From Alphaproteobacteria bacterium (GTDB lineage: Bacteria; Pseudomonadota; Alphaproteobacteria; Caulobacterales; Aquidulcibacteraceae), in NCBI GenBank assembly GCA_027488965.1, contig JAIYAO010000008.1:1-49174 (forward strand): a DNA stretch of 49,174 nucleotides, in the 5' to 3' direction. Each line of letters begins with the position of its first letter. The first letter of the stretch is position 1. Under the pieces are notes generated by a model. That model was not told the DNA's origin. It was given only the letters and a program-made list of their open reading frames with translations, and did not search any database. Of this stretch, positions 29,717-31,357 are shown one piece after another. The position numbers were made by a program, and so were the translations under genes.

Positions 29717-29752
29717 CAAGAAAAAGCGGCGCGCCCGGGGGAGCGCGCCGCT
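29717..29752 (-). terminator. Rho-independent terminator of the Hsp20 gene
   Basis: Reverse strand AGCGGCGCGC-TCCCCCGG-GCGCGCCGCT-TTTTCTTG: 10-bp perfect stem plus U tract. Confidence 0.88.
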
Positions 29753-29789: not shown

Positions 29790-30260
29790 TTACGCGGCGT
29801 CGGCGTCGATGGTCTTGGCCTTGCGGGCCGGGGCCGCGGCGCCGGTGTTGATGGCGATGGTGCGCGGCTTCAGCGCCTCGGGCAGTTCGCGGATCAGATC
29901 GACCACGAGCACGCCGTTTTCCAGCCGCGCGGTGTCGACGCGGACGTAGTCCGCCAGGCCGAAGCGGCGCTCGAAGCTGCGCTCCGCGATGCCGCGGTGC
30001 AGGAACCGGCGCGCTTCCTCTACCGGCGCCTTGCGGCCGGCGACGATGAGCGTGCTGTCCTTGAACTCGATGTGCAGCTCTTCGGGCGCGAAGCCGGCCA
30101 CGGCGAGCTCGATGCGGAAGCCGTCATCGCCGGTCTGTTCGACGTTGAAGGGGGGATAGCCAGGCGCCGCGTCCAACCGCATGGCGTTGTCGATCAGCGT
30201 GTTGATGCGGTCGAAGCCCACCAGCGTGCGGTAGAGGGGGGAGAGATCCTTGGTCTGCAT
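29790..30260 (-). CDS. Hsp20 family small heat-shock protein
   Basis: MQTKDLSPLYRTLVGFDRINTLIDNAMRLDAAPGYPPFNVEQTGDDGFRIELAVAGFAPEELHIEFKDSTLIVAGRK; IbpA-like alpha-crystallin domain. Confidence 0.96.
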   Translation of the reverse strand: MQTKDLSPLYRTLVGFDRINTLIDNAMRLDAAPGYPPFNVEQTGDDGFRIELAVAGFAPEELHIEFKDSTLIVAGRKAPVEEARRFLHRGIAERSFERRFGLADYVRVDTARLENGVLVVDLIRELPEALKPRTIAINTGAAAPARKAKTIDADAA

Positions 30261-30330
30261 GACATGTCCTTTCCAAGCGACACATTGCGCGCTCCCGTCA
30301 TTCCCGGGGGAGGCTGCCGGGCGACGGCCG
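30261..30330 (-). promoter_or_regulatory. ROSE-type RNA thermometer in the Hsp20 5' UTR
   Basis: Reverse strand ...AAUGUGUCGCUUGGAAAGGACAUGUC-AUG: UCGCU pairs with AGGA with bulged G, extended by AUGUG/CAUGU; a second hairpin CUCCC...GGGAG lies upstream. Confidence 0.75.
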
Positions 30331-30505
30331 CGGCCCAGTTGGCGCCGAAGCCGTCCTGCGCACCCTCGACTTGAGCGGTGCACGCGGTTGAGATGGGAAG
30401 CCGTCCAAAGGCGTCAAGAGGCCACACGGGACCTCCCGGGGCCGTGACTTTCCCCCGGCAGGTCAGGCTGGTAAGCCCCGCTCCATAACCCAGAGGATAA
30501 CGCTC

Positions 30506-31357
30506 ATGCTTCGCTCCCTGATCGGCGTCGCCGCCGCCGTCACGCTCGCCGCCTGCGCCACCGCCCCGCAAGCGGCGGCCCCCACGCCCGACGCCGCGCT
30601 CGTGGCCGCCGTGGCCGGCGACTGGCGCTCCGCCGGGGACAAGGCCCGCGACGGCGCGCGCCGCCCGGCCGAGGTGCTGGCGTTCTGGGGCGTGAAGCCG
30701 GGCGCATCGACCCTCGAACTCAGCCCCGGCGGCGGCTACTGGACCGACATCCTCGCGCCCTATGCCAAGGCCACGGGCGGCCGTTACTTCGCCACCGCCG
30801 CAGACCTCTCCAACCCCGCCCTGTCGGAAGGCGCCAAGCGCAACCGCGCCGCCTTCGAGGCCCGCCTCGCCGCGAAGCCCGATGTTTACGGCAATGTGAC
30901 GCTGGTGAACTTCGGCCAGGTCTCCACCTCGCTCGGCGCGCCGAACTCGCTGGACGTCGTCATCACGGCCCGCAACGTCCACAACTGGATGGCGGCCGAC
31001 ATGCTGGACAAGGTGTTCAAGCAGTCCTTCGACGTGCTGAAGCCGGGCGGCGTGTTCGCCGTGGAGGAGCACCGCGCCCCCGTGGGACCGCAGGACCCCA
31101 AGGCCGAGAACGGCTACGTGACGGAGGCGTTCGTCCTCGCCGCCGCCGAGCGCGCCGGCTTCCGCCTCGACGCCCGCAGCGAACTGCTCGCCAACCCGAA
31201 GGACACCAAGGATCACCCCTTCGGCGTGTGGACGCTGCCGCCCGTGGGCCGCACCGCGCCCGCCGGCCAGCCCGCCAACCCCGCCTTCGACCGCACGAAG
31301 TACAACGCCATCGGCGAAAGCGACCGCATGGCGCTGCGCTTCGTCAAGCCGAAGTGA
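30506..31357 (+). CDS. Secreted/lipoprotein class I methyltransferase-like protein (COG4798 type)
   Basis: MLRSLIGVAAAVTLAACATAP lipobox; VLAFWGVKPGASTLELSPGGGYWTDILAPY...LDVVITARNVHNW. Confidence 0.88.
   Translation: MLRSLIGVAAAVTLAACATAPQAAAPTPDAALVAAVAGDWRSAGDKARDGARRPAEVLAFWGVKPGASTLELSPGGGYWTDILAPYAKATGGRYFATAADLSNPALSEGAKRNRAAFEARLAAKPDVYGNVTLVNFGQVSTSLGAPNSLDVVITARNVHNWMAADMLDKVFKQSFDVLKPGGVFAVEEHRAPVGPQDPKAENGYVTEAFVLAAAERAGFRLDARSELLANPKDTKDHPFGVWTLPPVGRTAPAGQPANPAFDRTKYNAIGESDRMALRFVKPK

Follow-up and report, generated by a model that had tools for sequence, protein, structure and literature searches.

The leader of the Hsp20 gene in the stretch of alphaproteobacterial DNA analysed here (49,174 nucleotides, referred to as the window) carries a hairpin that we read, with a probability of roughly nine in ten, as a ROSE-type RNA thermometer gating translation of Hsp20 on top of transcription by RpoH. 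The gene lies on the minus strand (29790..30260, ATG at 30260-30258) and encodes an IbpA-type small heat-shock protein of 156 aa (Pfam HSP20, E=3.6e-17); a search of its own genome returned this single match, so that it is the sole Hsp20 copy. Its upstream neighbour, at 30506, is divergently oriented, and an intrinsic terminator-like stem-loop 3′ of the gene (29725..29752, minus strand; 12 pairs followed by TTTTCTTGTG) suggests that the Hsp20 transcript is monocistronic. The closest named relatives are Hyphomonadaceae/Caulobacteraceae metagenome-assembled genomes.

Direct reading of the minus strand gives a leader ending in GCGCAAUGUGUCGCUUGGAAAGGACAUGUC-AUG, within which the hairpin AUGUGUCGCU-UGGAA-AGGACAUGU occupies 30262..30285. 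Its anti-Shine-Dalgarno motif UCGCU (U30280 C30279 G30278 C30277 U30276; 30276..30280), an instance of the ROSE motif U(U/C)GCU (PMC3669281, PMC11342760), faces the Shine-Dalgarno (SD) sequence AGGA (30267..30270), which stands 6 nt from the AUG. The core consists of U30276-A30270, C30277-G30269, C30279-G30268 and U30280-A30267, with G30278 bulged as the one unpaired base, and the loop is possibly closed by U30275-A30271. The first-pass annotation had placed this pairing, and its extension by 30281-30285 against 30266-30262 to sequester the SD completely, at the same bases, and both hold at exact coordinates, subject to two qualifications: the outer pairs (G30281-C30266, U30282-A30265, G30283.U30264, U30284.G30263 and A30285-U30262) include two wobbles, G30283.U30264 and U30284.G30263, and the Hsp20 AUG falls beyond the stem and is roughly half unpaired when modelled. 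The hairpin is the minimum free energy structure at 30 °C whether folded in isolation, within an 80-nt leader or within a 130-nt leader. A second AUG, out of frame, sits in its 3′ arm at 30265-30263 on the minus strand (AGGACAUGUCAUG), 5 nt short of the Hsp20 start codon, and in both same-genus relatives the AUG in this arm is in frame with Hsp20 (ACAUGCCUAUG); it seems too close to the SD to be used.

Recognition by standard covariance models, whose absence the first-pass annotation had named as grounds for refuting the element, was not obtained. No Rfam family reached threshold in the window and a 451-nt stretch yielded none at E<=10, while the scan of a 161-nt stretch returned only irrelevant families and no ROSE. 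None of the three ROSE models (RF00435, RF01832 and RF02523) reached its gathering score at the window locus, and RF02523 and RF01832 produced scattered weak matches only, with none in the window leader. A sub-threshold match to the M23 sRNA was dismissed (16.9 bits vs 41.2). We ascribe the miss to limited model sensitivity. Among 61 genomes, RF00435 passed its cut-off in two, before other Hsp20 copies in one (G017) and at two places in the other (G054). Its best sub-threshold matches fell exactly on the orthologous Hsp20 leader in five further genomes (G003, G009, G021, G043 and G048) and just upstream of that leader in G060. It was equally silent in a Caulobacter vibrioides control genome, although ROSE elements have been reported for Caulobacter crescentus, among the alphaproteobacteria in which they precede small heat-shock genes (PMC3669281). 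RF00435 misses the window element because the model needs 94 positions with specific hairpins on the 5′ side and a stem at the start codon, whereas conservation here is confined to the 3′ hairpin.

The full-length, Rfam-grade elements of these two relatives, both of which have additional Hsp20 copies, lie away from the main Hsp20 gene, at G017:C2:670773-670866, G054:C44:1025-1116 and G054:C24:10871-10965 (loci L097 and L098), the first two directly before a second Hsp20 gene. In both genomes the main Hsp20 orthologue has a shorter form that stays below the Rfam cut-off, giving two ROSE styles per genome.

Since the Rfam models gave no match, conservation was tested directly. Hsp20 homologues were present in 60 of the 61 genomes searched, and their leaders, 83 of them distinct, were collected. 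In 77/83 leaders U(U/C)GCU occurs no more than 35 nt from the start codon, compared with only 1-5/83 for each of the next six 35-nt windows upstream and 3.9 in shuffles. The six leaders without the motif belong to distant or paralogous genes, except that one (L065) reflects a mis-chosen start codon and its real leader does have the motif. In two second-paralogue Hsp20 leaders (L063 and L066, from G042 and G058) a CUGCUUCGGGGGC-like stretch replaces the U(U/C)GCU/AGGA hairpin, the motif apparently having been lost or altered there. Pairing of the SD with a bulged G is possible in 78/78 motif-bearing leaders, and among 66 distinct hairpins UCGCU (42/66) outnumbers UUGCU (24/66). Leaders from the same genus are nearly invariant over the ∼35 nt adjoining the start codon but have diverged over most of their remaining length.

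The stem also covaries, as examined across 41-66 leaders. With the SD located regardless of pairing, each of the first four outer pairs forms at a frequency above all 2000 permutations, and the second outer pair occurs as U-A (33), C-G (11), A-U (8) and G-C (4). Three MAFFT alignments (A1, A2 and A4) misplace a few or many rows, and the models were built from A3 and A5. In A3, where the bulged G is invariant, standard pairs fill 94.0% of cells vs 83.8% after shuffling, both-side changes number 32 cells vs 9.9, and the stem covariation score is 0.333 vs 0.151±0.015, with slid registers all at or below 0.086. Alignment A1 agrees on covariation despite some misaligned rows, and an SD-anchored count, independent of MAFFT, gave the same result. 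On this comparative reading, selection is acting on an RNA helix, and the proposal that U(U/C)GCU with a bulged G marks a ROSE element here is borne out by a motif kept in nearly all leaders and an outer stem with compensatory changes.

Purpose-built covariance models recover the element. With a model of 41 leaders that includes that of the window (R1), the Hsp20 leader was the top match in 8/9 genomes (E 5e-5 to 0.03), all other matches having E>0.6. A held-out model (R2), for which ten leaders were taken exclusively from other families, ranked the window leader first across all 3.28 Mb of the genome (21.6 bits, E 0.079), matched 30258-30288 when run over the window with filters off (E=0.0012) and gave its best match at the Hsp20 leader in eight test loci from the family of the window. 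R2 is not a sensitive whole-genome detector, because its filtered search left out the Hsp20 leaders of four same-family genomes (G001, G002, G003 and G005), which an unfiltered scan does find. Could the pairing nonetheless be chance complementarity around an SD in a GC-rich leader? The loose pattern TCGCT-N-AGGA-N-ATG occurs nine times in the genome (eight besides the window leader) vs four for a reversed control, and Rfam is silent, both of which would fit such an origin. It is refuted, to the point where we give it almost no weight, by the order-wide conservation, the compensatory changes and the first rank of the leader under the held-out model. The comparative evidence thus outweighs the Rfam miss and supports the ROSE interpretation.

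The second rank under R2 (20.5 bits) went to a clean UCGCU-UCAAG-AGGA hairpin (AAUCGCUUCAAGAGGAUU) on another contig (C170:30939-30971, plus strand; around 493-525 of locus L109), immediately ahead of the point where a TonB-dependent-receptor-like gene begins. R1 did not list it, and no close homologue was found in relatives; it may be either a chance match or a second thermometer.

Transcription from upstream of the hairpin is predicted by an RpoH (sigma-32)-type promoter at 30391..30418 on the minus strand (−35 CTTGAC at 30418-30413, N15, −10 CCCATCT at 30397-30391), about 158 nt upstream of the Hsp20 ATG. Its score of 13 was unmatched in 60 shuffles. Most relatives have CTTGAA-N15/16-CCCATCT-like sites at a comparable distance, with a mean score of 10.9 vs 8.3 for shuffled sequence and scores of at least 12 in 29% vs 0.1%; the rhizobial RpoH1 consensus is CTTGAA-N15-16-CCTATAT (PMC4843759). 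From this promoter, transcription would start at about 30383-30386, giving a 5′UTR of about 125 nt that contains the hairpin. The first-pass annotation had named transcription starting 3′ of the hairpin as fatal to its proposal; the conserved predicted promoter points the other way.

Upstream of the thermosensing hairpin the structure of this leader is less distinct. The annotation had described a second stem, CUCCC (30312-30308) with GGGAG (30296-30292), spanning 30292..30312 on the minus strand. This possible auxiliary GC-rich hairpin can form and similar hairpins occupy its place in several relatives, but rival folds compete with it, and leader structure in this region is weakly above chance across relatives (mean fold z −0.62). 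ROSE elements comprise two to four stem-loops in all; further 5′ stems are predicted here, though fold z-scores in this region are weak and the alignment is not conserved.

We followed the predicted response to temperature by nearest-neighbour folding of the 130-nt leader in ViennaRNA. The unpaired fraction of the SD was 0.23 at 30 °C and rose to 0.35 by 50 °C, a modest change in the expected direction and a melting too gradual to prove a thermometer. Nearest-neighbour models do not capture the non-canonical behaviour of ROSE elements. Relatives fold alike (0.23 to 0.32 unpaired), and over 66 leaders SD accessibility at 30 °C was 0.23 vs 0.44 for shuffled leaders. Deleting G30278 in silico lowered the unpaired fraction to 0.01-0.08 at 30-50 °C (0.01-0.03 at 30-42 °C), compared with 0.23-0.35 for the wild type over the wider range. 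In known ROSE elements the imperfect anti-SD helix covers the SD at low temperature and melts as it warms, and induction is weakened or lost when the conserved G is deleted (PMC4288164; PMC11342760).

The small predicted change in SD accessibility between 30 and 50 °C, together with the strong RpoH-type promoter, would also suit a hairpin that merely damps translation at all temperatures, heat induction being purely transcriptional via RpoH. We consider this improbable, since the bulge is conserved: the bulged G and the imperfect pairing weaken the helix, loss of G30278 in silico locks the SD, and a constant damper would not need conservation in 77/83 leaders. The reading we favour is therefore still a thermometer, with temperature-dependent translation of Hsp20 inferred from membership among the ROSE elements. 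RpoH would transcribe Hsp20 from the promoter upstream; at normal temperature the 3′-most hairpin in the ∼125-nt leader would pair AGGA with UCGCU, G30278 bulged, and so block ribosome binding, with a strength of repression that is likewise predicted; heat would then open the imperfect helix, aided by the bulge and the wobble pairs, and allow ribosomes to start translation.

Comparison with characterized systems places the element within this class. ROSE elements of the RF00435 type, such as ROSE1 of Bradyrhizobium japonicum hspA, likewise precede alphaproteobacterial small heat-shock genes, pair U(U/C)GCU imperfectly with the SD around one conserved bulged G and have a predicted multi-hairpin leader; the consensus 3′ hairpin (seven pairs, the bulge, three pairs and a short loop, with UUGCU opposite GGAGGA) has the same geometry as that of the window. 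The window element differs in not being recognized by the model, in upstream hairpins that do not match, in having UCGCU with a C-G pair beside the bulge instead of U.G, and in a start codon that is not clearly in the stem, whereas the RF00435 outer stem covers the AUG. The short ROSE-like thermometers of Pseudomonas ibpA (Krajewski et al. 2013, PMC3669281) resemble it in the U(U/C)GCU placed opposite the SD in the 3′ hairpin, in GC pairs flanking the core, in an unpaired AUG and in RpoH-dependent transcription (here a predicted promoter), although those leaders are about 60 nt long with two hairpins and that of the window is put at about 125 nt. The ROSE-like thermometer of Providencia stuartii oppF shares the bulged G in an SD-paired stem, and deleting that G reduces heat induction (PMC11342760); it belongs to an ABC transporter gene of a gammaproteobacterium and, unlike the window element, has U.G beside the bulge.

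A different role for the same hairpin is suggested by E. coli IbpA, which represses its own mRNA via the 5′UTR thermometer and needs R93 and Y34 to do so, residues reported to be conserved in alphaproteobacterial IbpAs (PMC10474464). The Hsp20 of the window has Y35 (in GYPPFNVE) and R94/R98/R99 (in IAERSFERRF). Of these, Y35 and R94 presumably correspond to Y34 and R93 of E. coli IbpA. The hairpin might accordingly serve mainly as a binding site through which Hsp20 represses itself, heat acting indirectly by drawing the protein onto unfolded clients. As the main function we think this unlikely, though somewhat less so than constant damping: no alphaproteobacterial case was found, and in reporter-tested ROSE elements the U(U/C)GCU/bulged-G design suffices for a temperature response (PMC3669281, PMC11342760). 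Self-repression would in any case complement a thermometer rather than exclude it, and is plausible as an additional layer. Tentatively, and at odds rather worse than even, we suggest that the Hsp20 leaders of the order form a distinct ROSE subtype mostly missed by the three Rfam models (mostly UCGCU, with C-G in place of U.G next to the bulge, a short conserved 3′ hairpin and the AUG outside the stem), in which the hairpin doubles as a feedback site for the Hsp20 protein and so senses heat and chaperone demand together.

ROSE elements are already known in Caulobacter and other alphaproteobacteria, and a ROSE-type thermometer before the Hsp20 gene of the window is an ordinary, expected form of heat-shock control for an alphaproteobacterial gene of this kind. 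Modestly new is that the ROSE elements of the order mostly escape Rfam and more often carry UCGCU than UUGCU. The class is under-annotated, since 77/83 leaders have the motif while RF00435 passes in 2/61 genomes, and a short 3′-hairpin model recovers ROSE elements missed by the standard library model. In the leaders examined, ROSE thermometers would thus be near-universal before the main Hsp20 gene across the order.
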